A stretch of 20,471 bases of DNA. Source: a virus. Shown here piece after piece: positions 3-20,471 of this stretch; position 1 is the first letter of the stretch, and the number at the start of each line of letters is the position of its first letter. The notes under the pieces were generated by a model, which was not told the DNA's origin, ran no database searches, and worked only from the letters and a program-made list of their open reading frames with translations. The stretch covers positions 1 through 20,471 of the IMG/VR virus record IMGVR_UViG_3300042691_004977; one strand, given 5' to 3'. The translations under genes and the position numbers were made by a program.

Positions 3-1193
3 TTGTGCATTAAGCATTCTGGTATTAGATGTTTAATCGGACGTACAGTTCTACAACAATTAAAACTAACCACTCTCAATACATTATTTGAGACGTTACA
101 AGCGATGGGATTAAAAGCCGGTGAGCATTATACTTACAATGGCCAATCCAATGTAATAACCTTTTATAATAAATCTGAAATAGTTTTAAAAGATTTGGCT
201 TACCAACCAAGTGATCCAAATTACGACAGCCTGGGTGGTTTAGAATTAACCGCCGTATTTGTTGATGAAGCAGCTCAAATACCACAACTAGCATTCAACA
301 TTCTTAAATCACGTATACGTTTCAAATTAAATGAATTTAAATTAATACCAAAGATATTATTGACGTGTAACCCTGGACAAGTATGGTTAAAGAAATACTT
401 CTATCTACCATACATAGAAGAATCTTTGGATGTGAATAAAGCTTTTGTCCCAGCATTACCACTAGATAATCCACACTTACCAGCAACCTACATAGAAATG
501 CTTAAATCGTTACCACCTGGTCAACGTAAGCGTCTATTAGAAGGTGACTGGAATTATGAGATGGATGCTGATAGCTTATTTGATTTTGATGACATATCAA
601 GATCAGTATTTAGAATTGGTCCAAATAGTGATGATAAAAAATATATTTCAGTTGACGTAGCTAGGTTTGGATCAGATAGGTCCGTAGCGATCGTTTGGGT
701 GGGTCTGGTTGCGTTAGAATGCTTCGTCTATACCAAACTATCAGCTGTTGAATTATCGTCCGAAATTAACGCTCTAATTGCGAAACACGGAGTGCATCCA
801 AAAAATGTTATTATAGATGCTGATGGTGTAGGAGGTCCGGTCAGCGATATTTTAAGAGGGACAGATTTTGTGAATAACTCAAAACCATTACATAACCAAA
901 ACTTTGTTAATCTAAAAAGCCAATGTTATGTAAAACTATCTGAATTATTCAAGGAAGGTAAAATATCAATCAATTTATTAGATACATCTTTAATTGATGA
1001 CTTGACTCAAGAATTATTGGCAGTTAAATTAAAGGATGTTGATAGAGATAATAAGGTACAAGTAGCTTCAAAAGAAGAGATGAAAAAGATACTAGGTAAG
1101 TCACCAGACTTATCTGATGCTCTAATGATGCGAATGTATTATGAAATAAAGAACCTGAAAGCCACAGGTAGATACGCGATGGCTTACGTTTAA
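3..1193 (+). CDS. terL: Phage terminase large subunit, 5'-truncated by window edge
   Basis: The terminase large subunit is the ATP-driven motor and nuclease that packages DNA into the prohead through the portal. Residue numbers here count from position 3. The Walker B strand AVFVDEA is at about residues 84-90 (D88, E89). A TCNPG segment at 121-125 fits the coupling motif. The C-terminal RNase H-like nuclease shows acidic residues at D218 (SVDVARFG), D272 (IIDADGVGG) and D369/D372 (SPDLSDAL). The Walker A loop is missing, so the true start lies left of the window, and the TTG at position 3 is only the first in-frame codon. The stop TAA is followed after one base by the ATG of the next gene (TAATATG), suggesting translational coupling. 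The visible domains look intact. Motif assignment is by eye, but the family call is firm. Confidence 0.93.
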   Translation: MCIKHSGIRCLIGRTVLQQLKLTTLNTLFETLQAMGLKAGEHYTYNGQSNVITFYNKSEIVLKDLAYQPSDPNYDSLGGLELTAVFVDEAAQIPQLAFNILKSRIRFKLNEFKLIPKILLTCNPGQVWLKKYFYLPYIEESLDVNKAFVPALPLDNPHLPATYIEMLKSLPPGQRKRLLEGDWNYEMDADSLFDFDDISRSVFRIGPNSDDKKYISVDVARFGSDRSVAIVWVGLVALECFVYTKLSAVELSSEINALIAKHGVHPKNVIIDADGVGGPVSDILRGTDFVNNSKPLHNQNFVNLKSQCYVKLSELFKEGKISINLLDTSLIDDLTQELLAVKLKDVDRDNKVQVASKEEMKKILGKSPDLSDALMMRMYYEIKNLKATGRYAMAYV

Positions 1194-1194
1194 T

Positions 1195-1929
1195 ATGCTT
1201 AAATTTAAAATTGATGACAAGGAATATATAATTCCTGAATTTATTAACATAGAAAATTATGCTAAGATCTATAAAGTAAAAGACCTGTTCAGTGACGATT
1301 ACTTTGCAGCTAAGCTAATTAATATTGTTACAGACGCTCCAATAGAAGATCTATTACAGGTTGATTATCAAGAAGTTAGCTATATTGCTAATTATATTAT
1401 GTCATTGGTACCGATAGCTAAAGACATTCCATTTAAAGATAGATTTGAATTAAATGGTGTTCATTATGGATTTTTTCCTACGTGGAAAGAACTAACCTTT
1501 GCTGAGTTTATTGATATGGATACAATATCCACCAAGAAACCAGAAGAATTATTGGATCTAATGCACATATTGGCTGCAGTAATGTACAGACCAATTATAG
1601 AAGAAAAGTCAGAACACGATTTTAAAATAGAAAAATACAGCGTTGATAGTTTAAATGAAAGAGCTGAACTATTCAAAAAGCACTTAGATGTCAAATATGT
1701 AATTGCTGCTCAGTTTTTTTTTATCAAGTTCGCAAACAGATATTTGGATTATACCCAGCTATCTTCGATCAAGAAGCTTTCGATATGGACCAAGATAAAA
1801 ATTATCTGGAAGATCCGGAAACTTCTATGGCATCTAATTTTCAAAAAGTCTTCGGATGGTATGTGGTCCTCAACAGAATTACTTCAAACGATATTACGAA
1901 GCACCAATATGTCCTTGAAAAAAAGATGA
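1195..1929 (+). CDS. Putative tail assembly chaperone-like protein, zero-frame ORF of a frameshifted gene
   Basis: This frame encodes 244 residues starting at the TAATATG junction with the terminase gene. The first ~176 residues look like a normal soluble protein: an N-terminal KFKIDDKEYIIPEF segment, a central FPTWKELTFAEFIDMD segment and helical stretches. After the T9 run at 1714-1722 the zero frame turns into an abnormal basic, Trp-rich tail of 68 residues and stops at 1927-1929. The -1 frame gives a much more natural continuation to 2009. I therefore think residues past ~176 are out of frame in the main product, which would be 271 residues. The tail assembly chaperone idea rests on this frameshift layout, typical of lambda G/GT-type chaperones, and on the morphogenesis context. 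However, the tape measure is 14 kb away instead of adjacent. The function is tentative. Confidence 0.6.
   Translation: MLKFKIDDKEYIIPEFINIENYAKIYKVKDLFSDDYFAAKLINIVTDAPIEDLLQVDYQEVSYIANYIMSLVPIAKDIPFKDRFELNGVHYGFFPTWKELTFAEFIDMDTISTKKPEELLDLMHILAAVMYRPIIEEKSEHDFKIEKYSVDSLNERAELFKKHLDVKYVIAAQFFFIKFANRYLDYTQLSSIKKLSIWTKIKIIWKIRKLLWHLIFKKSSDGMWSSTELLQTILRSTNMSLKKR
1714..1722 (+). other. T9 slippery run, likely -1 frameshift site
   Basis: Nine T residues follow a CAG codon, read in the zero frame as TTT TTT TTT followed by ATC. The heptamer T TTT TTT fits the X XXY YYZ form needed for -1 ribosomal slippage. A nine-T template is also prone to polymerase slippage. Both frames are open only between 1668 and 1927, and the run lies inside that interval. 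No convincing downstream hairpin or pseudoknot was seen; a four-pair CTTC/GAAG stem at about 1763-1776 is weak. A homopolymer sequencing error (true T10 or T7) would also explain the split. Confidence 0.6.
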
Positions 1930-2009
1930 TAGAGGTGTTTAATCAATTAACTTATATCATTCAACACGACCAGCTACAAGCTGAGTTACAGAAGAAAACT
2001 TTCAAATAA
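1722..2009 (+). CDS. -1 frame C-terminal extension of the chaperone-like gene
   Basis: Read from the T9 run in the -1 frame, this adds 95 residues beginning YQVRKQIFGLYPAIFDQ and ending QAELQKKTFK. It contains MASNFQKVFGWYVVLNRITS, an amphipathic helical region and a final helix. Composition is balanced, unlike the competing zero-frame tail. The frame is open from 1668, after the stop at 1665. Its first ATG is at 1785, which would give a separate 74-residue protein, but that ATG follows GCTTTCGAT and lacks the A/T-only leader seen at the other starts in this window. I therefore read it as the second half of the gene beginning at 1195. It ends 30 bases before the next gene. The function is inferred only from context. 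Confidence 0.6.
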   Translation, partial: YQVRKQIFGLYPAIFDQEAFDMDQDKNYLEDPETSMASNFQKVFGWYVVLNRITSNDITKHQYVLEKKMIEVFNQLTYIIQHDQLQAELQKKTFK

Positions 2010-2039: not shown

Positions 2040-3041
2040 ATGACTAATTATAAGCAGATATTACAAGATTTAAAGGGAATTGCGTTCTATCACCCTCAAA
2101 TTAATTCATTTGGGATAGGTGATATTACACAAATTACTCAGGACATTGAAACCAAACAAGAGCCAAGATATACAAAAATGTACGTGGTTCCTGGTACTGT
2201 AACCCTTAATCAGAACGTATTATCATATCAGTTATCAATCATCATATTAGATAAAATTGAAGATGACTATTCAAATCAACGTGACGTAATGAGCGATACG
2301 TTGGAGATAGCCAAAGATATATTCACAATATTATACCAATCATATACCTCACAGTATGGGGATTTTACGTTGTATTATGAACCAGAATGGGGACCAAATG
2401 TAACACCTTTCCTAGAAAGATATGAAACAATCCTAGGTGGATGGACATTAAATGTAACCATCAACCAGCCATTTGATTACAATAACTGTGTATTACCATT
2501 CAGTGGATTATCTTTACCAACATCAGTAAATGTGGTTAACTATAAGCAAATTATAGAAGACTTGGAGGATATTGCCAATACTCACGAACAAGTTAATAGC
2601 TTCGGATATGGCGATTTGACACAACTAACAATGGATGTACAGACCAAACAAGAACCAGAATATACTAGGTTATATGTTTTACCAGCTGATACAATTCTAG
2701 ATGAAAATCAATTAACATTAAATTTTACCATAATTGTAGCAGATAAGCTAGAGGATGACTATTCAAACCAAAGAGATGTATTGAGTGATACCCTAGAAAT
2801 TATCAAAGATGTGTACACAGTTTTATATTTATCAGAGTATGAGACTGAGTGGGGTGCTAGTGTTGAACCATTCTTGGAGAGATTTGAGAGTGTTTTAGCT
2901 GGCTGGACAATGAACATAACACTTACTCAACCATTTGATTATAACAGATGTGTATTACCTGAAATAGATTTTACAGCAACAAAATGGTCTGAGTTAGCGG
3001 AATTATGGGACGAAGTTAATAAAAAGTATAATAAAATATAA
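2040..3041 (+). CDS. Tandemly duplicated virion-associated protein, possibly tail terminator/neck-like
   Basis: The 333-residue protein consists of two homologous domains, residues 3-153 and 167-307, joined by a short linker and followed by a ~26-residue tail. Each copy begins NYKQI and ends QPFDYN.CVLP. Each carries a strongly conserved core, DKIEDDYSNQRDVMSDTLEI in copy 1 and DKLEDDYSNQRDVLSDTLEI in copy 2. By eye, identity is somewhat above half. Copy 2 lacks about 10 residues where copy 1 has SYTSQYGDFTLYYEPEW. I recall similar single-domain proteins in uncultured Bacteroidota phages but cannot name a characterised family. The ~150-residue domain size and neighbourhood would suit a tail terminator or head-tail joining protein, which is inference. 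The start is preceded by the 16-base AT motif. Confidence 0.7.
   Translation: MTNYKQILQDLKGIAFYHPQINSFGIGDITQITQDIETKQEPRYTKMYVVPGTVTLNQNVLSYQLSIIILDKIEDDYSNQRDVMSDTLEIAKDIFTILYQSYTSQYGDFTLYYEPEWGPNVTPFLERYETILGGWTLNVTINQPFDYNNCVLPFSGLSLPTSVNVVNYKQIIEDLEDIANTHEQVNSFGYGDLTQLTMDVQTKQEPEYTRLYVLPADTILDENQLTLNFTIIVADKLEDDYSNQRDVLSDTLEIIKDVYTVLYLSEYETEWGASVEPFLERFESVLAGWTMNITLTQPFDYNRCVLPEIDFTATKWSELAELWDEVNKKYNKI
2046..2498 (+). repeat. Internal domain duplication, copy 1
   Basis: First of two protein-level repeats in the gene at 2040. It covers residues 3-153, from NYKQILQDL to NNCVLP. The similarity is clear in protein and weaker in DNA, so the duplication is old. Confidence 0.85.
2538..2960 (+). 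repeat. Internal domain duplication, copy 2
   Basis: Second repeat, residues 167-307, from NYKQIIEDL to NRCVLP. It is ten residues shorter than copy 1 because of a deletion just before the EW.G motif. The core YSNQRDV and SDTLEI segments are kept exactly. Confidence 0.85.
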
Positions 3042-8839: not shown

Positions 8840-11800
8840 ATGGCGCAACAACAACAAACTGTCTTACGTGTTGAAACGAATGTACAGACTCAAATACCAA
8901 CTACAGGGTCTACAACTATATCAGTTGCTAGCTCTCAAAATTTAACTATTACTGGATCTGGTACTACTATCAATCCATTTACCGGTGTTACAACTAGTAC
9001 TACTGGCTTTACTAATAGTTCAATCAGATTAAATGTCAATAATGGTGATGGTATTTTAAAATATAACATTGTTATAAATGAAGGTGATAATGGGTTTCAA
9101 TATCAAGACAATTTTGTAAATTGTTATGTTACACACGCTAACGGATATAGTAGTGGTATTGGGGGATTTTCTGAGTTTAATACACAAGCAGAAAGTTCGC
9201 CAGTAGCAATTTTAAATGGATCATTTAATGTACTTAAGGGTGATAGCGTATTCTTTGGGTTTAATCCAGCACCGTATACTGGAACTACTACTGTAAATTT
9301 ATGGGTTGAACCAACAACTCAATATTCATCACCAACACTTAAGACATTTGAAAGCTTAGATTTATATGGTGATATACCATTAAAATTAAATAAATCTTTT
9401 GCAGAATTACAGGATATATCCAAACGTAATTCTGATTATTCTATTGGTGTACAAATACCAGGATCTAAAAAGAACAATAGGTTCTTCCAGAACTATTTTG
9501 ATGTAGATTCAACAAATCTATTTTTTGATGTAACCAAACGTGTACCTTGTCAAATATTACTCAATGATGAGAAGTATTTTGAAGGTTATTTAAGATTAAA
9601 TAAGGTTAATGTTATTAACTCTAAAGTAGAGTATGATGTTACATTATTTTCTAGTGTTGCGGATCTATTTGGTAAAATAGGTAATAACCTATTAAACGAT
9701 TTAAATTTTGATGACATAGATTTTCATTTCAATCACTACTTCAGCTTATTGAATGTAATGAAAGAATGGAGATATAACGCTATGTTGAACACTGCTTCTG
9801 TACCATCTCTTTGGTTTTATCCTGTTTTACATAATGGGTATAACTATAGTGGTGATACGGTATTATTAAGTGGTAGTACTGTAATAAGCCAGACAAGATT
9901 ATATACAACAACCACCGGAGGTACATTTGCTAACTATAGTGCATTTACTTCTGCTGGAGGAAAGGAATATAGAATTAACTCACCTAAATTTCCAGTATTA
10001 GATAACCAATTAAAGCCAGCTTTAAACATATGGGGTTTAATCCAATTAATGTTTAAGACATATGGGTATTCAATAAAGTCAGACTTTTTTAATACGCCTT
10101 GGTTTAAATTATTATATACGTATGGAATATATGGTTCCGATACAACAAAGTTCTCAACAAAGATAACTGAAATAGCAGAATTGCCATTAAGTGGTGTTGA
10201 TGTTATTGGTAACTTTGATAGGTTTGTTGTTGGTCCAGCATCAAATTTCTATGTAGTTAAAAAAGGTACAGGCATACCTTGTTATTCAACTCAAGCAATA
10301 AGTTTTAGAGTAAGATTAATTAATGTAATTGGTCAAACAGTAGGACCAGTTACAGTAAACATTCCACCTTTATCTACTGGAACAACAATTAACTTACCAA
10401 ACACTTCAGGATGGTATATTCAGCTTGTGGCCGGATCTAGTAATGTTACAACCTCAAATAGGGCGATGACATATTTCCCACAACCTGTTGGTACAGCAAT
10501 ACCTGTAACAGACGGTGAATATGTAGACTTTGGTGCAATCATAGATAACTCATATAAACAAATTGACTTACTATCTTCAATAGCTAAGAAATTTGATTTA
10601 GTGTTTGTACCAGATCCTGATGTTCCAAATCAGATTATTATAGAACCATATGATTATTATATTGGAACAGGTAATATATACGATTGGACAGACAAGTTAT
10701 CTTGGGATAAAGGTTTTAGTGTACAACCAGCATTGAACTTTGTTGAAAGTGAAATTATACTTACAGATTTAGAAGATGGTGACGATGGAAATAAAATATT
10801 CAAAGACAGAAACAATAGGGTATATGGTGAAAACAAAGTAACCAATCCAACAGACTTTAAATCGCAAACAAAAAAGATTGATACAATTTTTAGTCCTGAG
10901 GTAATTCGTAAATGGGATAATCAAGTAGGTATACCTCTTGGTATCAATTACGCATCACAAAACAAACCACAAGATACCGGTGATACACAAAAGGTGACTT
11001 GGGAATATAAAGGCATCAAATCTAAACCAAAGTTAATGTTTAACTTAGGTAATTTCTCACCATTCTTGGATCAAGTTGGTGAAGCATTTGTTGCAACAAA
11101 CGTAAATACAAATTTCTTTAGACTAGCAAAATCAAATGGAACAAACTATGGTGGTAATGAATATGCACAAGGGTCATTAGCTAATCCTGTTATATCTCAT
11201 ACTATGCCAATGGGTAACCCAGATAAAAACAAAAATGGTAGAGGGTTTAATAATGATAGTTTATGTATATTATTTAACTCAGAAGAGCCAGCAGATATTG
11301 GTTTAGGTATACCTACATTCAACGCATATACAGATAATGATATGTATAGTGCATTCTATTCTAATAGAATAAATAACTTATATAATAAAAATACTAGATT
11401 TTTAACAGCATATTTTGATTTAAAACTATCTGATATTAAAAATCTAAAAGCAAACGATTTAATCAAAATTAACGAGCAATATTTTGCTGTTAATAAAATA
11501 AATCAATATAATTATACAAATCCTGAATTAACTAGTGTTGAATTAATTCAAACAAATGTACAACCTAAAACATATCCTGATAGATATTTCTTCTATCAAT
11601 ATTGTTCTGGCTCAACGACTGTATATAAGTTTAAAACCTATTTTAATCCAACAGATAATACTGGCATAGAATGGTTAGATGAAGTTCCAACATCATTAAG
11701 AAAGACGAACATATTCTGGTCTATTTTATATGACTATATGGTTGGTGCTCTTGGTGGCGCTGTAACTGGATATACAAGTTCATATGCCATAACACTTAAT

Positions 11801-14419
11801 AGTACTGTATATCCATATAAGATATGGGAGGTTACAAAAGAACAATATGAAGCTTCTGGTGTAAGTCATGATTATGATCCAAATGATGTATATTTTATCA
11901 GTAGATCAGATTATGGGCCTTCTAACTTCAATACTGAAGAAAATGATTATCTATACGCATTTTCAAATAGATCAGGATATGATGGTAGAAATGCATTATT
12001 TAATGTTGCATTAGATTGTGTTACATATGCATCTTTAGCTAATCAAAATTATATTGATTTATCTCCAGGACCAAACCCAAGACAAGTTAGTTTTGAAGCA
12101 ACAAATTGTGATGGTTCCGGAGAAACTTTATTTTTTAATAGTACAAGTTATCCACTAGTTAATCAAATTGTTAAACAGGGTACTAAATGTTTTAATATTG
12201 ATTATCGTCTACTTTACAATGCTAGCTATCCTATTATAAATGATATATATGATAGTTGTGAAGAATGTTTAGGTACAATTGCACCTACACCATCTTCACC
12301 TGAAGCAATGAGAGGATCGTTGTTAATGACCTTTGATGAGATTAACGAAGGTAAAGGTGGAACAAGTGTTGAGGTGTTAGTAAATGGTGAATATCGTGAT
12401 GTAAATTATAACGAGTCAACTAACCTATATTCAACATACATTTATACTGGCGATGTTGTTACTGTTAAGATTGAGAACAATCCAACCACCGGTGAGACAT
12501 ATACAGTTGTAAGAAGAGATTATACAACAGATGATACGCTTGGTGAAATGGGTATTGTTGATACTACGTTAATATCATTTAGCGGTGGTACTGGCGCTAC
12601 ATTGGTATTTACAGCTACCACATTAAATGCATCATCTTATAACTTTGAATATAGAGTAACCGCAAATATAGGATCACCACTTCCAGATCAATGTATATGG
12701 GCATTTAATGAAAATATATGGTCTAATAATACAGTATATTGGTCAAGTTGTTCAAATGTACCAACCGGATCTATAGCTGTACCTGGTTATTATGGTGCGT
12801 CGCAAAAGATAGCTTGTAGGGGTGACAACAACTACATATTATTTTATTCAGGTGCTTCATTTGGTTTAGGTACAAATGTTTATACTAACCCAACTTTAAC
12901 TACACCAGTTCCTAATGGATGGTTTACTGATTTTACAACTTTATATAGAATACTTGGCGGACAATTATTCTCAACAGAAGCTTGTCCGGCTTGTTTAGAA
13001 GATCCTGAAACTGTTAACTGGCAAATAGATTATTCTTACAATTCTGATGTTGCAACAGGATTTACAATGGCAGAAATGCATATTTGGAACTATCCAATGG
13101 ATGGGGATTGTGTTGGTGGATTTGGTGCTGTAAATTATTTTACACCAGCATCTTATGTATATTATTCTGGATTAACTGGATCTACCACTTGGACTGGATC
13201 AACTTCTAATGATGGACAAACACAAGGTTTAAGAAGATTACAAGTTAATATTAACAACTGTTATCAACCAACTACATGGCCATCAATTGTAAGATCTGGA
13301 AGTAATATTGCTTTATATATAAATAATATTTTTATTAAGAATTATGATAGTTGGACTAATAACAATGGTTCTGGATATGGTGGTGCGATGACACCTTGTA
13401 GTGGTTTAACACAATATACTAGAACTTTAATTAATTTTGATAATGTAACAATCAATGAAGGTGACAATGTTAAGATTGTTTTCACAGACAATTTTATTAC
13501 ACCTTGGCAAAAAAGTCAATTTGAATATAACTGGTCAAATTCACAAACAACTAGTAGAAATATAAGTGGGTATACCTTTGGTGGTAGCGGTACATATTTT
13601 GTACCTAACTATTCAGCAACAATTACTGGAACTAGCGGTACTTATTCAACAGCTTTAAATACAAATGCTGCTGGTGAAATATCTGCACAATTATTCTTTA
13701 GAATAGCCAATTCTGGTGTAACTGATACAATTGTAACCAGAACAATTAAACTATTCCAAGATAACGTTGAATTAACCGGATATACTGTAACTCAAACCGG
13801 TATGACTGTTCCTGTAATACCTAGCAATCTATTAAGATTTTATACTAACTGGCCAACAACTGTAGGTACTAAATTGGTAACAAATAAGTGGCAAATTACA
13901 GATGTTTTTGCATCTCCGGCGCCAACACCTACGCCGACACCAACTGCTACACCTACGCCGACACCTACACCTACACCGACCTATACAGCGCCTACATTCC
14001 AATACAAATATGTTGCAACAAGTAATAGTAGTACAACTAGTAAAGCTGCTACAAATATGACAGCTACATTTAATAGAGATGGTGGTTTAGGTACTAACAC
14101 ATATTCTAGAAGTAATTTGACTTGGACAAGTAGTGCAAATAATACAAGTCCGTCTCAGAATATTGATACAATACACGTTGGAAGTAATAGTATTACAATT
14201 ACTAGAAATATTATGAAAACCACTGCTGGTACTGTAGTATTGGATGATACTAGATGGAGAATATTGATTAATAATGTGGTTGTAGCAACCTATACAAATA
14301 CAGCAAATAGAACCGTACCGTTCCAACCAACAACATTGTCTGAAAGTTATACATTCAATAATGTTGTAATAGGTAGTGGTGATAACGTGGTTATTGAAGT
14401 GACAGATACCCAAGTTTAA
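8840..14419 (+). CDS. Giant tail-tip protein with hub-like N-terminal part and C-terminal adhesin modules
   Basis: The protein is 1859 residues. Residues ~170-300 (LDLYGDIPLKLNKSFAELQD, QIPGSKKNNRFFQNYFD, then FEGYLRL) match the pattern of tail-tip hub proteins in Bacteroidota phages and prophages. Residues ~620-950 continue the hub-like part (RNNRVYGENKVTNP, FSPEVIRKWDNQ). After ~1135 (YDSCEECLGTIAPTPSSP) come modular extensions. One, at ~1322-1383, contains NPTLTTPVPNGWF. Beta-sandwich-like modules follow, two of them ending FDNVTINEGDNVKI (~1532) and FNNVVIGSGDNVVI (~1838). A Pro-Thr linker lies at ~1692-1718. The protein probably forms the tail tip and carries host-binding domains. No peptidase or lysozyme motif was recognised. 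The start TAATATATG is three bases after the previous stop. Confidence 0.7.
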   Translation: MAQQQQTVLRVETNVQTQIPTTGSTTISVASSQNLTITGSGTTINPFTGVTTSTTGFTNSSIRLNVNNGDGILKYNIVINEGDNGFQYQDNFVNCYVTHANGYSSGIGGFSEFNTQAESSPVAILNGSFNVLKGDSVFFGFNPAPYTGTTTVNLWVEPTTQYSSPTLKTFESLDLYGDIPLKLNKSFAELQDISKRNSDYSIGVQIPGSKKNNRFFQNYFDVDSTNLFFDVTKRVPCQILLNDEKYFEGYLRLNKVNVINSKVEYDVTLFSSVADLFGKIGNNLLNDLNFDDIDFHFNHYFSLLNVMKEWRYNAMLNTASVPSLWFYPVLHNGYNYSGDTVLLSGSTVISQTRLYTTTTGGTFANYSAFTSAGGKEYRINSPKFPVLDNQLKPALNIWGLIQLMFKTYGYSIKSDFFNTPWFKLLYTYGIYGSDTTKFSTKITEIAELPLSGVDVIGNFDRFVVGPASNFYVVKKGTGIPCYSTQAISFRVRLINVIGQTVGPVTVNIPPLSTGTTINLPNTSGWYIQLVAGSSNVTTSNRAMTYFPQPVGTAIPVTDGEYVDFGAIIDNSYKQIDLLSSIAKKFDLVFVPDPDVPNQIIIEPYDYYIGTGNIYDWTDKLSWDKGFSVQPALNFVESEIILTDLEDGDDGNKIFKDRNNRVYGENKVTNPTDFKSQTKKIDTIFSPEVIRKWDNQVGIPLGINYASQNKPQDTGDTQKVTWEYKGIKSKPKLMFNLGNFSPFLDQVGEAFVATNVNTNFFRLAKSNGTNYGGNEYAQGSLANPVISHTMPMGNPDKNKNGRGFNNDSLCILFNSEEPADIGLGIPTFNAYTDNDMYSAFYSNRINNLYNKNTRFLTAYFDLKLSDIKNLKANDLIKINEQYFAVNKINQYNYTNPELTSVELIQTNVQPKTYPDRYFFYQYCSGSTTVYKFKTYFNPTDNTGIEWLDEVPTSLRKTNIFWSILYDYMVGALGGAVTGYTSSYAITLNSTVYPYKIWEVTKEQYEASGVSHDYDPNDVYFISRSDYGPSNFNTEENDYLYAFSNRSGYDGRNALFNVALDCVTYASLANQNYIDLSPGPNPRQVSFEATNCDGSGETLFFNSTSYPLVNQIVKQGTKCFNIDYRLLYNASYPIINDIYDSCEECLGTIAPTPSSPEAMRGSLLMTFDEINEGKGGTSVEVLVNGEYRDVNYNESTNLYSTYIYTGDVVTVKIENNPTTGETYTVVRRDYTTDDTLGEMGIVDTTLISFSGGTGATLVFTATTLNASSYNFEYRVTANIGSPLPDQCIWAFNENIWSNNTVYWSSCSNVPTGSIAVPGYYGASQKIACRGDNNYILFYSGASFGLGTNVYTNPTLTTPVPNGWFTDFTTLYRILGGQLFSTEACPACLEDPETVNWQIDYSYNSDVATGFTMAEMHIWNYPMDGDCVGGFGAVNYFTPASYVYYSGLTGSTTWTGSTSNDGQTQGLRRLQVNINNCYQPTTWPSIVRSGSNIALYINNIFIKNYDSWTNNNGSGYGGAMTPCSGLTQYTRTLINFDNVTINEGDNVKIVFTDNFITPWQKSQFEYNWSNSQTTSRNISGYTFGGSGTYFVPNYSATITGTSGTYSTALNTNAAGEISAQLFFRIANSGVTDTIVTRTIKLFQDNVELTGYTVTQTGMTVPVIPSNLLRFYTNWPTTVGTKLVTNKWQITDVFASPAPTPTPTPTATPTPTPTPTPTYTAPTFQYKYVATSNSSTTSKAATNMTATFNRDGGLGTNTYSRSNLTWTSSANNTSPSQNIDTIHVGSNSITITRNIMKTTAGTVVLDDTRWRILINNVVVATYTNTANRTVPFQPTTLSESYTFNNVVIGSGDNVVIEVTDTQV
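13436..13489 (+). repeat. Beta-module terminal motif, copy 1
   Basis: Encodes FDNVTINEGDNVKIVFTD, at about residues 1533-1550 of the tail-tip protein. The same pattern, F-x-N-V-x-I-x-x-G-D-N-V-x-I-x-x-T-D, recurs at 14353-14406. Confidence 0.65.
13913..13993 (+). repeat. Pro-Thr linker microsatellite in the tail-tip gene
   Basis: This stretch encodes a 27-residue linker of nine Pro-Thr pairs interrupted once by Ala-Thr. The DNA is a degenerate hexamer repeat (ACACCT, ACGCCG, ACACCA), clearly richer in G+C than its surroundings. It separates the last beta module from the rest of the tip protein. Confidence 0.9.
14353..14406 (+). repeat. Beta-module terminal motif, copy 2
   Basis: Encodes FNNVVIGSGDNVVIEVTD at the extreme C-terminus of the tail-tip protein, the counterpart of 13436-13489. 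This suggests two paralogous beta-sandwich modules on either side of the Pro-Thr linker. Confidence 0.65.
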
Positions 14420-14452: not shown

Positions 14453-15511
14453 ATGAGTAAGAGATATATTCCACAGGTAAATGAAACCAATTTTGTTTAC
14501 CCAAATAATACAAATCACGAATATGACGTCAATATTGTTCACGATATTAACGATAATTGTGTATCGGGTACTGTAACCAATTTCAGTGCAACCACTGTAA
14601 ATACTACTGGTATTACATTTAGTTTTAACTATTCTTGGGCTAAAAATAACGCTGAACCATTTATTTCACAAGCTGGAAATATCAACTTACTGTCTGTCCA
14701 TATGTTGGCTAATGGTCAAAATTACTATAAACCTTGGAGATTGGTTCATTATGTTAACAATGCAGTAACAGGTAATTCAACATATTCTGGATCTACAGCA
14801 TTTACAGTATTACCATCTCAAGTAGGTTTATCGTCATTTGGTGATGGTATGTATTATTTTGAGATTAGGTTTATTGGTCATAGAGCAATATTCCCGGTAT
14901 GTGCACAAGCTAATATTAGTGCTTTACCAACCCCTACACCAACACCTACACCTACAATAGGACCTACACCAACACCTACAGTTACGCCAACACCGACACC
15001 TAGTGTTTGTTGTGTATCTGGTGTAACATTAAACGTAACAGATACTGGATGGCTTAAGTATACATTATGTGATGGTACTGTTGAATATAAACAATATACA
15101 ACAACTGGTAATAAAGTTATACCAGAATGTATACAGCAAAATTCAGTTGCATATGGTTTCCCATTTGCTGATCTAGCCGAATTTACAGTTACTGGATCTG
15201 GAACAATATGTGGCGGATCTTGTGCATCACCTACACCAACCCCAACACCAACATTACCTGGTGGTTTAGTATCATATGGTGGTTGTGGATATGGTAATAG
15301 TGTTGCTGAAGCTTGTAATGATGCAATAATTAATAATAGAACATTATATTCTGATTGTGATACTATATCATTTGGTCCAGGATGTTTTGTTTACACTGAT
15401 ACAGTTCCAACAGCATTAACTGGATATTCACACATCTTTATGAATTTCCAAAACTGGGATGTTAACTCATCAACAGGTGTTGTAACAGCATACTCATCAG
15501 TACAATGTTAA
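14453..15511 (+). CDS. Putative receptor-binding/adhesin protein with Pro-Thr linkers and Cys-rich modules
   Basis: The 352-residue protein has three domains separated by two Pro-Thr linkers. Residues 1-157 form a beta-rich N-terminal domain. Linker 1 is at 158-183. Residues 184-257 are a Cys-containing module (CCVSGVTLNVTDTGW, YTLCDGTVEYKQY, TICGGSC). Linker 2 is at 259-267. Residues ~271-352 form a C-terminal module (YGGCGYGNSVAEACNDA, LYSDCD, WDVNSSTGVVTAYSSVQC) of a kind I have seen at the ends of aquatic phage tail proteins. Cysteines could pair in the mature virion. No signal peptide is visible. It follows the tail-tip gene and shares its linker type, so a host-contact role is likely but inferred. 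Confidence 0.55.
   Translation: MSKRYIPQVNETNFVYPNNTNHEYDVNIVHDINDNCVSGTVTNFSATTVNTTGITFSFNYSWAKNNAEPFISQAGNINLLSVHMLANGQNYYKPWRLVHYVNNAVTGNSTYSGSTAFTVLPSQVGLSSFGDGMYYFEIRFIGHRAIFPVCAQANISALPTPTPTPTPTIGPTPTPTVTPTPTPSVCCVSGVTLNVTDTGWLKYTLCDGTVEYKQYTTTGNKVIPECIQQNSVAYGFPFADLAEFTVTGSGTICGGSCASPTPTPTPTLPGGLVSYGGCGYGNSVAEACNDAIINNRTLYSDCDTISFGPGCFVYTDTVPTALTGYSHIFMNFQNWDVNSSTGVVTAYSSVQC
14927..15001 (+). repeat. Pro-Thr linker microsatellite 1 in the adhesin gene
   Basis: Encodes residues 159-183, mostly alternating Pro-Thr with one IGP and one VTP break. It uses the same hexamer vocabulary (ACACCT, ACACCA, ACGCCA) as the linker at 13913-13993. Confidence 0.9.
15230..15253 (+). repeat. Pro-Thr linker 2 in the adhesin gene
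   Basis: A short run encoding PTPTPTPT between the middle Cys module and the C-terminal module. It shares the ACACCAAC type of repeat with the other two linkers. Confidence 0.85.
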
Positions 15512-15525
15512 AAATATATACATAT

Positions 15526-15729
15526 ATGAAGATAGAAATTTATTTGGATGCAGCAAAGTTAGATTTATCAAATGTTAGTTTAGCCAATTTTAACCAACAA
15601 ATGATTGATAAAAAAGAAAGATTAGCTAGAGAAGAGATATTAGTACCACCGTTTAATAAACTAAAAGGTGACAAAACTATATTGCAAAAGGCTTTTCTAA
15701 ATGAATTAGCGGAAAGCTTAAATTTATAA
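15526..15729 (+). CDS. Small hypothetical protein upstream of the tape measure, 67 aa
   Basis: Encodes a 67-residue, probably helical protein beginning MKIEIYLDAAKLDLSNVS and ending NELAESLNL. An earlier in-frame ATG at 15505 would overlap the previous gene's stop and add MLKIYTY. I prefer 15526 because ATG there follows the A/T-only leader (ATATATACATAT) typical of starts in this window. In many tailed phages the slot before the tape measure holds tail assembly chaperones, but this protein is too short and featureless to assign. Its TAA is followed after four bases (TATT) by the tape measure ATG. Confidence 0.7.
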   Translation: MKIEIYLDAAKLDLSNVSLANFNQQMIDKKERLAREEILVPPFNKLKGDKTILQKAFLNELAESLNL

Positions 15730-15733
15730 TATT

Positions 15734-18142
15734 ATGGCTACTAAAAAAGTACAATTTATTCTAGATGTTGATGGCAAACCAATTGACGTCGCTATTGATA
15801 AAACGTTAAACTTAAAACAACAATTTAGGGAATTAACCAAAGAGATTAATAAAACTAAAGAAGGTACAAAAGAGTTTGAATTATTATCAACTAAATTAGG
15901 CGATGTTAAAGATAATATGGAAAGTACTACCGCTAAGTCAAGAGACTTATTTGGTAGTTTATCTTTATTACCTGGTCCTGTTGGAATGTTTGCTGGTCAG
16001 GTAGATAATGCCATAGGTAGTTTAAAACTATTCTCGTCATTTAATTTAAAAGACTTAAAATTCCAATTAGGTGAAACTCTTAATGACTTTAAGGATATAG
16101 CCTCAAATATAGGTAAAGCTACTGGTATTACAAAAATATATACAGTATTAAATAATGCTTTAGCTAAGTCATTTGTTGCTGTTGGTGTTGGAGAAACAGC
16201 TGCGGCAGCTGGTGCTAGAGCGTTTGCAGCTGCGTTAACTGCCACTGGTATTGGTGCGTTGGTTGTATTATTAGGTGTAGCTGCGTCTGCACTTTATGAT
16301 ATGGCTACTGGTGAAGATGAGGCCAAGGCAGCAACTGATAGATTAAATAGATCGTTAGAAACCCAAAACCAATTATTAGATGCTAATCAAAAGGCAGCAA
16401 AAAGAAGAAGTGCTGAATATATTGCCACATTAAAAGCTCTTGGTAAATCTGAAAAAGAAATTAGAGATGCACAAATTAAACAAGCATATTCTGATTATGA
16501 AGAAGCGTATAATGCTGAAAATGCCGCTAGAAAACTTTATAATGATAATTTAGGTAAGGCTGATGCTGAGGGCTTAAAGAAACTTGAGGACAATCTTGAT
16601 AAAAGAATTGAGGCTACAAAAGACGCATATTCAAACTATATTGTAACTGGTAGAAATGCTCAAGCAGCAGAATTGGCGGAACAAAAAGCAGCAAATCAAA
16701 AATCTGTTGATGCTAATAAGCAAAAACAAGAAAAGATTGCTCAAGATAATAAAGCAGCAAATGAAATGTTGCTTGATTTACAAAGGGAAAATGCTGCATT
16801 AGCTTTAACAGATGAAAGAGCTAGACAAGATCAAGAATTAAAAAATGCTAAATTAGCTGAAGAAGATAAGATCAAAGAATTGCAAATATCCCAAGAAAAG
16901 AAAAATGCAATTTTATCACAGATTAATATAAAATATACAGCAAAACAAAAAGATTTAGATGTTAAAAGAAAAGAAGAAGATTTAAAAGCAGAAGAAGAAT
17001 TTAATAATAAAGTTGCTGAAATTAGATTATCTGCAATAAAAGATGAGACAGAAAGAACTATTGAACAAAGACAAGTAAAGTATCAACAAGACTTGAAAGA
17101 TCTAGAAGCTGATAAACAGTTCATTAAAAAATCTGAAGAAGAAAAAGCTAAGATAAGAAAAGATTTAGCGACAGCAGCAGAAAATGAAATAGCTAAAATT
17201 AAACTTGAAGCTAAATTAAAACAAGACGCAATTGACAAAGGTGAAGCAGATGCTAGATTTGTGCGTTTAATGTCTGGTGCTCAATTAGATTTAGATTTAC
17301 AACGTAAATTACTAGAAGATAAAAAAGCTGCTGATGACAAATACTATGCTGAGCAATTGGCTAGAGAAGGATTGACAGCAGATCAAATAAGAGAGATAAA
17401 TGATAGAAAGTTAGCTGATCAAATTGGTTATACTGAAAAATCAAATCAGATTGAAAGAGATAGAGTAGCGGTTAGACAAAAAGCTTTAGACGATATTATA
17501 TCAATTGTAGGTGCTGAAAGTGATTTAGGTAGAGCAGCATTAATTGCTAAACAAATATTATTAGCTAAAGAGTTGGTAATGGAGGCTAAGAAAACCATAA
17601 CATTCTCAGCACAAGCTGCTGCTCGTTCAACTGTAGCGGTAGCTGAAGGTACTGCACAAACAGCAAAAGTTGGTTTCCCACAAAACGTACCATTATTAAT
17701 TGCTTATGCTGCACAAGCTGCTGGTATTATTTCAGCAATTGCTTCTGCTGTAAAATCAGCTAAAGGTGCTTCTAGTGGTGGTGGTGAAGGTAGTGGAACA
17801 ATGCCAACTGGAGAAAATTTGGGTAGAAACTATGAGTCTGGAGGTATGATCAACGGACCAAGACACGCTCAGGGCGGTGTTATGATTAATGCTGAGGGTG
17901 GTGAAGCTGTAATGACAAGAGGTGCTGTAACAATGTTCGCACCACTATTATCGGCTATGAACCAAATGGGAGGCGGAACATCATTTAATAGTGCTGTTGG
18001 CCAAGCATTACCAGATGCTCCAGCTGTTACTAATCCAGCATTAAATCAACAACCAATGATAATGAAAACATATGTAGTTAGTAATGAATTAACAACTGAA
18101 GCTGAAAGACAAAGTAGATTAAAAGATTTATCAACATTATAA
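15734..18142 (+). CDS. Tail tape measure protein
   Basis: The tape measure sets tail length and is packed in the tail tube. The protein has 802 residues. The N-terminus (~1-70) is polar and coiled-coil-like (KQQFRELTKEINKTKEGTKE). A hydrophobic Ala/Gly-rich segment lies at ~142-190 (ALTATGIGALVVLLGVAASA). A long charged helical region (~195-610) is rich in Glu, Lys, Ala and Gln. A second hydrophobic segment is at ~622-680 (VPLLIAYAAQAAGIISAIAS), then a Gly-rich stretch. The end, YESGGMINGPRHAQGGVMIN with EGGEAVMTRGAVTMFAPLLS, is characteristic of Bacteroidota phage tape measures. No lytic transglycosylase or peptidase domain is seen. At ~0.15 nm per residue, 802 residues suggest a tail of ~120 nm. 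The stop couples to the next gene through TAATATG. Confidence 0.88.
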   Translation: MATKKVQFILDVDGKPIDVAIDKTLNLKQQFRELTKEINKTKEGTKEFELLSTKLGDVKDNMESTTAKSRDLFGSLSLLPGPVGMFAGQVDNAIGSLKLFSSFNLKDLKFQLGETLNDFKDIASNIGKATGITKIYTVLNNALAKSFVAVGVGETAAAAGARAFAAALTATGIGALVVLLGVAASALYDMATGEDEAKAATDRLNRSLETQNQLLDANQKAAKRRSAEYIATLKALGKSEKEIRDAQIKQAYSDYEEAYNAENAARKLYNDNLGKADAEGLKKLEDNLDKRIEATKDAYSNYIVTGRNAQAAELAEQKAANQKSVDANKQKQEKIAQDNKAANEMLLDLQRENAALALTDERARQDQELKNAKLAEEDKIKELQISQEKKNAILSQINIKYTAKQKDLDVKRKEEDLKAEEEFNNKVAEIRLSAIKDETERTIEQRQVKYQQDLKDLEADKQFIKKSEEEKAKIRKDLATAAENEIAKIKLEAKLKQDAIDKGEADARFVRLMSGAQLDLDLQRKLLEDKKAADDKYYAEQLAREGLTADQIREINDRKLADQIGYTEKSNQIERDRVAVRQKALDDIISIVGAESDLGRAALIAKQILLAKELVMEAKKTITFSAQAAARSTVAVAEGTAQTAKVGFPQNVPLLIAYAAQAAGIISAIASAVKSAKGASSGGGEGSGTMPTGENLGRNYESGGMINGPRHAQGGVMINAEGGEAVMTRGAVTMFAPLLSAMNQMGGGTSFNSAVGQALPDAPAVTNPALNQQPMIMKTYVVSNELTTEAERQSRLKDLSTL

Positions 18143-18143
18143 T

Positions 18144-18275
18144 ATGGCGAAAACAAAATCAGCTGGAAACAGCCACAAAATCAGTTTTGGAAAACGTAAA
18201 TCTCAACCTAATGGTAAAAAGTCTTATGGACCAAAATCTCAGAAACCTAAGCCTTATAAAGGCCAAGGGCGTTAG
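18144..18275 (+). CDS. Small highly basic protein, 43 aa
   Basis: ATG at 18144, one base after the tape measure stop, and TAG at 18273-18275 encode 43 residues beginning [20 protein letters not shown] and ending YKGQGR. Lys and Arg make up about a third. The [16 protein letters not shown] end resembles short basic proteins I recall next to head genes in Bacteroidota phages. The role is unknown; a DNA- or capsid-binding accessory is conceivable. Its last 29 bases overlap the 3' end of the antisense HNH gene, so the C-terminus is constrained by, or was reshaped by, that gene. Confidence 0.72.
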
Positions 18276-18678
18276 AATATGCTTTATTTGCTTCTTCTAA
18301 TGTTTTAAAAGTACCTAAATAAATTTGTTTTTTATTATGATAAATTTTAGTATGATATGTCCCACTTTTAGTAATAGAAACACCAGGATTTATACTTTTG
18401 AAATAATGAGTAACGTTTTGACGATTTGTACACCATTCAAGATTTTCTACTCTATTATCGGTTTTATCGCCATTAATATGATTTACTTGTGGAAGATTAT
18501 TGGGATTTGGTATAAAAGCGTCAGCAACCAATCTATGAACTTGATAATCCTTTTTATACAAAGAAACGGTTGGGTACCCCTTTGTTACAAGAAATGGTTT
18601 AAGATATTTTTTGGATATATTAGACCAAATCCGACCATCGGAATGAATGATGTAGTTATTGTCAAACGATTTTTCCAT
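18247..18678 (-). CDS. HNH homing endonuclease with AP2-like DNA-binding domain
   Basis: The only leftward gene, encoding 143 residues. Residues ~9-40 ([20 protein letters not shown]) look like a NUMOD4-type segment. The HNH_3-like core at ~48-90 includes [23 protein letters not shown] with the central N66-H67 pair, and [10 protein letters not shown]. Residues ~105-140 ([20 protein letters not shown], then AYSNAL) resemble an AP2-type DNA-binding domain. This layout is typical of free-standing phage homing endonucleases, which cut related genomes and spread by repair. The catalytic residues appear intact. Its 3' end overlaps the small basic gene by 29 bases. A Bacteroidota promoter lies directly upstream, so it can be expressed apart from the structural operon. 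Confidence 0.9.
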
Positions 18679-18730: not shown

Positions 18731-20471
18731 ATGGAGAAAGAAAGAATATACGAACTAAGAATAGATGATGAAGATCCAATATCGGGTGTTGATCAAATAT
18801 CTTTAGTTGATGAACCAGCCATTGAGGTTAACTGGGTGGCATTTAACAAACATAAGAATGTATTTCATATACCAGAAAATGAAGATGAAAAGTATCTAGA
18901 GATGCTTATGTCTAAAGCTGAATTAGAGGAAGATCTATTCAAACAAGGATATGTTGTTGACTTTATTGAAGTACTAGACGGTAAGGATGATTTTGCTACT
19001 AACCCAAATGCTGAGTCAGAATGGGATGAAGATGAGTTTAAGATCAGATACAAATATATGCTTAATCCACGTATTACTGGTCAAGCATCAGTAATATCAA
19101 CTACAAGAACATTCTGTAGAGATTTAGTTAATAAAAATTACGTATGGCGCGTTGAAGAGATGGATAGTCTTACCAATGAGTTTGGTGAGAGTGCTTTGGT
19201 TTGGAGAGGTGGATATAACTGCAGACACGTATGGGGAAAGATTAGATATAAGAAAGATGCTACAATTATTAACAAAGCATCTGTAAATAAAGGTAAAGCG
19301 ATGGATGGTGACTTTCCAAGTGGATTGGCACCAGATTTAGATGTGATTGGTTATGAGCAACCAAATACGGTTACTAATACTGTAATTCGTTCTGTACAAG
19401 AAGGAACTGCAAAACCATCAACCATTCGTAATCTAGGTTTATCAAAACAACAAATGGAAATTGATGATCAAAACGTAAATGTATTTGGTTATCATACAAG
19501 ATATTTTGCACTATGTCCTGGTGCACAAGCATTATTCAAGCACTTATCAGAAATGCCAAATGTATCAGAAGATGCTGTAGGTATGATTAGAAGTGCTGCA
19601 CAAGCTGCAGATAATGTTTTTAGAATTGAATACGAGGTATTAAAAGCAGAAAATGCTACAGAACATCAATACGAAGAAGCTGTGGTATTGGTTGACGATA
19701 TGGTGGATATTATGACTGAAGTTGATAATATCGTTGGTATGGATCACGATGTGTCATTTATGTATGGTCACTTAGATAAGATAGCTGACTATGTTAAAGA
19801 AGAGTTGGGATATGATGTGGGTGGTATAACTGGTTATGTTGATCCGGGAATTACTGGTAAAACAAGATCTAAATTTGAAACCTATAATGATTATCCTGAA
19901 GCAGCTAAAAATAATGCTTGTAAGGTACTCAGATGGAGAGATGAACACGGTGATGAAGTTAGAGGAATGACTAGGGTAGGTTGGACCAGAGCTAACCAAT
20001 TGTGCAAAGGTGAGAACATCTCAGAGTCAACGATTGCTCGTATGGCTGCTTTTGCTAGACACAGAAGAAATGCTGAAGTGTCACCAGAGTTTAAAGCAAC
20101 ACCTTGGAAAGATAGAGGTTATGTAGCTTGGTTAGGATGGGGTGGAACAACTGGTGTAGAATGGGCTGCAAACAAATTAGAGAGCATTAGAAAGAAGCAA
20201 ATGTCAAAACAAGAGTTTGCTACCGATGATGAAAAAAGAGTCGTTATGGGGCCAGCAATGATCCCAGAATTGAAGATATTCCGTAAGGATGGTTTAGGCA
20301 ATCCGTATTATGTATTTTTCTCAGCAGAAACAATTAAGATGATTGCTGAAAAATATATGCGTAACAAGTATCTTGATAACAATGATGAGATGCATAATGG
20401 AAAACCAGTACAAGATGTTTACGTAATTGAGTCTTGGATTAAAGAAAGTTACGAAGACAAATCAAATAAAT
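18731..20471 (+). CDS. Head morphogenesis protein with XkdF-like protease domain and large internal insertion, 3' partial
   Basis: 580 residues are visible, open at the right edge. Residues ~4-40 ([30 protein letters not shown]) match the N-terminus of XkdF-like (Peptidase_S78_2) proteins. Their protease part resumes at ~497-580 ([52 protein letters not shown]) and continues off the window. Between them lie ~430 extra residues. About 125-165 ([23 protein letters not shown]) resembles the C-terminal Cys-His motif of Mu F/SPP1 gp7-type minor head proteins. About 385-490 ([36 protein letters not shown]) is a module I recall from phage structural polyproteins. It probably acts in prohead maturation as protease plus minor head protein. 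The catalytic residues lie beyond or near the edge and were not identified. Confidence 0.72.

Follow-up and report, generated by a model that had tools for sequence, protein, structure and literature searches.

The 20,471-nt stretch of viral DNA analyzed here, referred to as the window, is a contig of an uncultured virus in IMG/VR and carries beside its terminase gene an open reading frame that is overlapped, across a run of nine T residues, by a second open frame. This arrangement raises the question of whether the two frames belong to one gene and, if so, whether they are joined by the ribosome or by the RNA polymerase, or were parted only by an error in the sequence. The reading that we favor, at a probability of about 0.85, is a gene with programmed -1 ribosomal frameshifting and two conserved C-termini, a conclusion drawn from comparative sequence evidence. 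Taken as a whole, the locus is best explained as one phage morphogenesis gene that is likely decoded in two ways.

Organization of the locus

The zero-frame ORF lies on the plus strand at positions 1195-1929, with an ATG at 1195 and a TGA at 1927-1929, and encodes 244 amino acids, the first 176 of which extend through the last base of the T9 run. The open -1 frame begins at 1668, overlaps the zero frame up to the stop of the latter at 1927, and ends with a TAA at 2007-2009; a -1 slip would add 95 residues and give a fusion product of 271 amino acids. The coordinates in the initial annotation for the T9 run, the zero-frame ORF and the -1 frame were all correct, and the slippery T TTT TTT that it placed inside the two-frame overlap is indeed in phase with the zero frame (T1716, TTT1717-1719, TTT1720-1722).

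The N-terminal domain common to both products (1195-1722, plus strand; 176 amino acids, ending in FFF) is conserved in all relatives and is homologous to P12024S_38 of the cultured Nonlabens phage P12024S. It ends with the T9 run (1714-1722, plus strand), which contains the in-phase slippery heptamer T_TTT_TTT at 1716-1722. Beyond the run lie, on the same strand, a basic, Trp-rich zero-frame C-terminal tail of 68 codons plus TGA (1723-1929) and an acidic, predicted helical -1 frame C-terminal domain of 95 amino acids plus TAA (1722-2009), to which the -1 frame of P12024S is homologous. Separate AlphaFold models, both of moderate confidence, were made for the zero-frame product and the -1 domain; the pLDDT was 74 for the former, with most of the N-terminal part between 70 and 90, and 69 for the latter, which was modeled as helices.

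Upstream, the gene adjoins the terminase large subunit gene (3-1193, plus strand; phrog_2, E=6e-30), and downstream it adjoins a gene with a PHROG match to the phrog_30964 domain (2040-3041, plus strand). The region 2040-3041 has an apparent tandem duplication of this domain, with copies of about 165 amino acids each, and P12024S has a single copy of 138 amino acids. Elsewhere on the contig, an ORF on the minus strand at 18247-18678 is HNH endonuclease-like by eye and, as an apparent insertion, separates the candidate tape measure gene from the next structural gene. A long ORF at 18731-20471 runs off the window and has weak portal-like (phrog_33693) and other PHROG matches; the lineage of this contig seems to have its head genes after its tail genes. 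Repeats of the PTPTPT type are found at 13832-14002 and 14453-15511, one in each of two large ORFs that follow one another (8840-14419 and 14453-15511).

Relatives and conservation of the -1 relation

Relatives were taken as tblastn-confirmed loci from scans of viral contigs. They form a large set of uncultured freshwater phages from many metagenomes, and the identity of their N domains to that of the window goes down to about 59%. The 114 relatives counted below are loci with both halves that are distinct around the run, one later batch of loci having been left out of the count, and the 84 representatives are a divergent, phylogenetically non-independent subset used for the tree and the dual-coding tests. 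An identical T9 context was found in four contigs from other metagenomes, in which the protein was 100% identical.

The terminase large subunit gene was directly upstream in all 112 testable relatives, and a gene of the phrog_30964 type was directly downstream in all 98 that could be tested. As placed earlier, the gene is beside the terminase and 14 kb away from the tape measure gene, the candidate for which is the ORF at 15734. None of the bacterial genomes searched, as prophage or host, carries the gene. A search of cultured phages by sequence gave no match, and P12024S surfaced through a fold search alone. Pfam, PHROG and PDB searches with the N and C domains returned nothing informative, and searches of PDB with Foldseek and VIA gave no match above noise.

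An alignment of homologs had been proposed in the initial annotation as a check. In all 114 distinct relatives with both halves, the frames are separate and joined at a T run, with the -1 frame carrying the second half. The same annotation had raised the possibility of a homopolymer error, made in sequencing or assembly, behind which would stand a run of T10 or T7 and a single ORF of 271 or 270 amino acids, and such errors do arise in long T runs. The -1 relation, however, recurs without exception across these relatives and many assemblies, extends to the separately sequenced cultured phage P12024S, and is likewise seen in relatives with an in-phase T7. An error of this kind was therefore rejected, and its probability is negligible.

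The T run and the slippery heptamer

The run was T9 in 100 of the 114 distinct relatives, T7 in 12 and T10 in two, and T_TTT_TTT was in phase in every relative (n=109 at the codon level, n=114 by the phase of the run). Immediately ahead of the junction the zero frame always read TTT TTT, following a codon that ends in T: TTT in 93 relatives, ACT in nine, CTT in three, and GTT, CGT, AGT and GAT in one each. The residue at this preceding position varies from Phe to Thr, Arg, Ser, Asp, Leu or Val and the last T of its codon is kept, as ribosomal tandem slippage predicts. On the tree of the 84 representatives there were at least seven changes of run length, T7 having been gained or lost at least five times.

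These changes bear on a second explanation, that of programmed transcriptional slippage on T9, in which the polymerase would add one U or drop two and the product would be a fusion of 271 or 270 amino acids. Transcriptional slippage often takes place on homopolymers of at least eight bases (PMC3711429). Here T9 predominates, is kept rather than T7 in most lineages and recurs in another phase in the P12024S clade, and the analysis found no RNA element that would stimulate frameshifting. A homopolymer of about eight or more is, however, not always maintained at the junction. The T7 changes were independent of one another and kept the in-phase T_TTT_TTT behind unrelated codons (ACT, CGT, AGT and GAT), and a length-dependent model does not predict a recurrent in-phase T7. 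Since T7 recurs and the in-phase heptamer is nevertheless always kept, a -1 slip on the ribosome is favored, and we regard transcriptional slippage as unlikely. The -1 frameshift on T_TTT_TTT that had been suggested for this gene has strong backing from conservation across relatives.

A third explanation is that of two separate genes, with the -1 ORF starting alone, for example at the ATG at 1785, and its product remaining unfused. The P12024S genes are annotated in this way (P12024S_38 and P12024S_39), and the window does have an ATG at 1785. Conservation in the -1 frame, however, starts right after the run (Y1, Q2, R4, P12, F15), upstream of this ATG, and in 83 of the 84 representatives the -1 frame has no ATG, GTG or TTG from its upstream stop to R4. 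Because start codons are absent ahead of the first conserved -1 residues, a separate second gene is very unlikely, and an independent start of the second ORF was rejected.

By comparative sequence analysis, then, the two halves are fused in the -1 relation, the heptamer is retained, and both frames are selected, as described below; we infer that the slip takes place on the ribosome, and likewise its efficiency. Most ribosomes would read through 1195-1929 and produce 244 residues, consisting of the N domain and the basic 68-residue tail. Some would go back one base on T_TTT_TTT (1716-1722) and produce 271 residues, in which the same N domain is followed by the acidic helical domain of 95 residues. 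The 204 nt at 1723-1926 would accordingly code in both frames, with both selected.

The distance of 204 nt (68 codons) from the slip site to the zero-frame stop is conserved. RNA structure prediction, which had also been proposed at the outset, found no conserved nested structure downstream of the run: RNAalifold gave 0 pairs, and single-sequence folding gave z values between -1.8 and +0.8, with z=-0.6 for the stretch in the window. At the zero-frame stop, a Lys-coding A7 stretch (1918-1924) is present in most relatives, often as A6-A8, and could be a second slip site or merely conserved Lys codons.

Dual coding downstream of the T run

A phage frameshift gene is usually taken to encode a short product and a longer version of it, with no attention paid to the zero frame beyond the slip. 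The initial annotation had likewise treated the zero-frame reading past the run as meaningless, a view that did not hold, as the basic, Trp-rich tail is a second conserved coding sequence. Judged from the codons of the relatives, both frames of 1723-1926 are under selection as protein, beyond what a one-frame explanation allows.

The zero-frame tail is open in all 84 divergent representatives. Given the -1 protein, the probability of an open zero frame is 0.7% per gene in synonymous shuffles, and even if the biased codon usage of the overlap itself is assumed, the expectation is only 18 open frames among the 84, as against the 84 seen. Most relatives have a tail of 68 codons, and 73 of the 84 representatives have their stop at one and the same alignment column. 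Synonymous change is 0.41-0.85 of expectation in the overlap and 1.11-1.22 after the zero-frame stop. The identity of the zero-frame tail is 1.58 times that of shuffles, compared with 1.15-1.20 for control stretches in the same frame relation, and falls to about 1.05 after the stop.

Individual codons show the same constraint. One -1 column is Met, Val or Leu, always encoded by NTG and followed by G, and the zero frame has Trp there in 84 of 84 representatives. At this invariant-Trp column the -1 Val codon is GTG in 17 of 17 (p=5e-13) and the Leu codon is TTG or CTG in 16 of 16 (p=1e-11), and at the zero-frame stop column the -1 Ile codon is ATA in 35 of 39 (p=5e-10); these p values assume independent relatives and are therefore optimistic, and the pattern recurs across many residues. 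The family mean pI is 10.9 for the basic zero-frame tail and 4.9 for the acidic -1 tail. The charge of the zero-frame tail (+10.7 observed versus +9.9 in shuffles) is no evidence of function on its own, since the -1 protein mostly yields basic charge by chance.

Because the zero frame is selected too, the slip site would choose between two conserved C-termini, one basic and of 68 amino acids and the other acidic and of 95. We lean toward the view that the -1 slip is a switch between two complete C-termini, rather than a means to truncate or extend one protein, and that overprinting in an older frameshift cassette gave rise to the basic one de novo. It is unusual for the same DNA after a slip to be selected in both frames, with each product having its own conserved tail.

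A cultured relative, Nonlabens phage P12024S

A Foldseek search of predicted viral structures with the zero-frame model found I6R9M9 of Nonlabens phage P12024S (175 amino acids, E=4e-8). BLASTP of the window protein against P12024S_38 gave 29% over 75 amino acids (E=3e-6), and from this match and the length of 175 amino acids we took I6R9M9 to be P12024S_38. This gene directly follows the terminase, and phrog_30964 is again found downstream. P12024S has a T9 run at 23578-23586 in a different codon phase, with T_TTT_TTT once more in phase, and its -1 frame is open to 23830 and annotated as P12024S_39. The remaining loci of the P12024S clade have the same T_TTT_TTT and -1 arrangement, and fused profiles of the window clade and the P12024S clade aligned across the junction (E=3.8e-11). 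Genes 38 and 39 of P12024S (23136-23830), annotated separately, are thus most likely one -1 frameshift gene.

The gp38 and gp39 of this Nonlabens (Persicivirga) phage (phrog_32199 and phrog_38404) resemble the window gene in having homologous N and C domains, a T9 run, the -1 relation and a position after the terminase, and differ from it in being annotated as two genes. Unlike the window clade, the P12024S clade has a zero-frame tail of just 15-25 residues and is without the long dual-coding stretch. The short tail suggests a later origin of the long basic tail by overprinting, with the -1 domain as the probable ancestral part, one outgroup clade being thin evidence for the direction of this change. 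With a 204-nt stretch constrained in both frames in a large uncultured clade, and an outgroup that has the junction and not the long zero-frame tail, the window clade and P12024S offer a case in which the birth of a protein tail by overprinting, within a frameshift cassette, can be put to the test. Annotation misses such genes: P12024S_38 and P12024S_39 were entered as two unrelated genes, and PRFect, in its own test, had low recall where the distance to the zero-frame stop exceeds 51 nt (PMC10885494).

Possible role of the gene

Tail chaperones are the best-known instance of -1 frameshifting in dsDNA phages (PMC5009743), and the genes around this one are of connector and tail types, for which reasons a chaperone role is favored. 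By analogy, we give an even chance to a tail or neck assembly chaperone working like lambda gpG/gpGT, in which case the short form would be abundant and the frameshifted form rarer. The earlier suggestion of a putative tail assembly chaperone (TAC) is plausible as regards the short and -1 forms. It fits less well with the other features of the gene, which adjoins the terminase, had no match to TAC family models in Pfam and PHROG searches, and has its slip 204 nt before the zero-frame stop, compared with a mean of 26 nt in the SEA-PHAGES training genes (PMC10885494); on these grounds we did not assign it to the lambda G/GT-type TACs. A fold search gave a weak match (E=0.27) to one BFVD protein named TAC. 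The usual position of a TAC gene is directly before the tape measure gene. A 74-amino-acid ORF at 15505-15729 lies directly before the candidate tape measure, and a frameshift signal was not evident in it on inspection.

The protein may instead belong to the head-tail connector or the neck, its second form again arising by frameshifting, a role that we consider possible but less likely. The gene lies between the terminase and connector-type genes, eight of 32 members weakly match a head-tail adaptor PHROG (best 0.006), and possible distant relatives in the Duneviridae follow portal and adaptor genes. Every one of these matches is weak, however, and the precedent of the tail chaperones speaks against a connector.

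Comparison with known systems

These possible Duneviridae relatives belong to phrog_25418 (Flavobacterium phage 2A gp12, Cellulophaga phage Ingeline_1 gp5). Their N domain is weakly similar to that of the window gene (Foldseek E=2e-5 with phage 6H; hhalign 2e-4), with a YRP/FF-like pattern, but they have an uninterrupted ORF of 293-301 amino acids. We did not accept them as homologs, as the comparison of whole-length profiles was too weak (E=0.007, probability 6%). In Flavobacterium phage 6H, the stretch at 10044-10927 is 2 nt longer than in the relatives 2A, 23T and FPSV, and because of this difference, which could be real or a sequencing difference, the ORF is split in 6H and is a single ORF of 293 amino acids in 2A.

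Potyvirus PIPO is an overlapping gene reached by a slip. Such overprinted genes of RNA viruses, accessed by frameshifting or slippage, resemble the window gene in having a long two-frame stretch and a slip from a common N-terminal part (PMC5009743). Unlike PIPO, the gene described here belongs to a dsDNA tailed phage, would be shifted by -1 at T_TTT_TTT, and has two C-termini whose ends lie no more than about 80 nt apart. With the TACs of the lambda gpG/gpGT type it shares a -1 shift at a heptamer, a common N domain, a longer product with an added C domain and a place in a morphogenesis operon. Unlike them, it adjoins the terminase gene rather than the tape measure gene, and its zero-frame product runs for 68 conserved codons past the slip.
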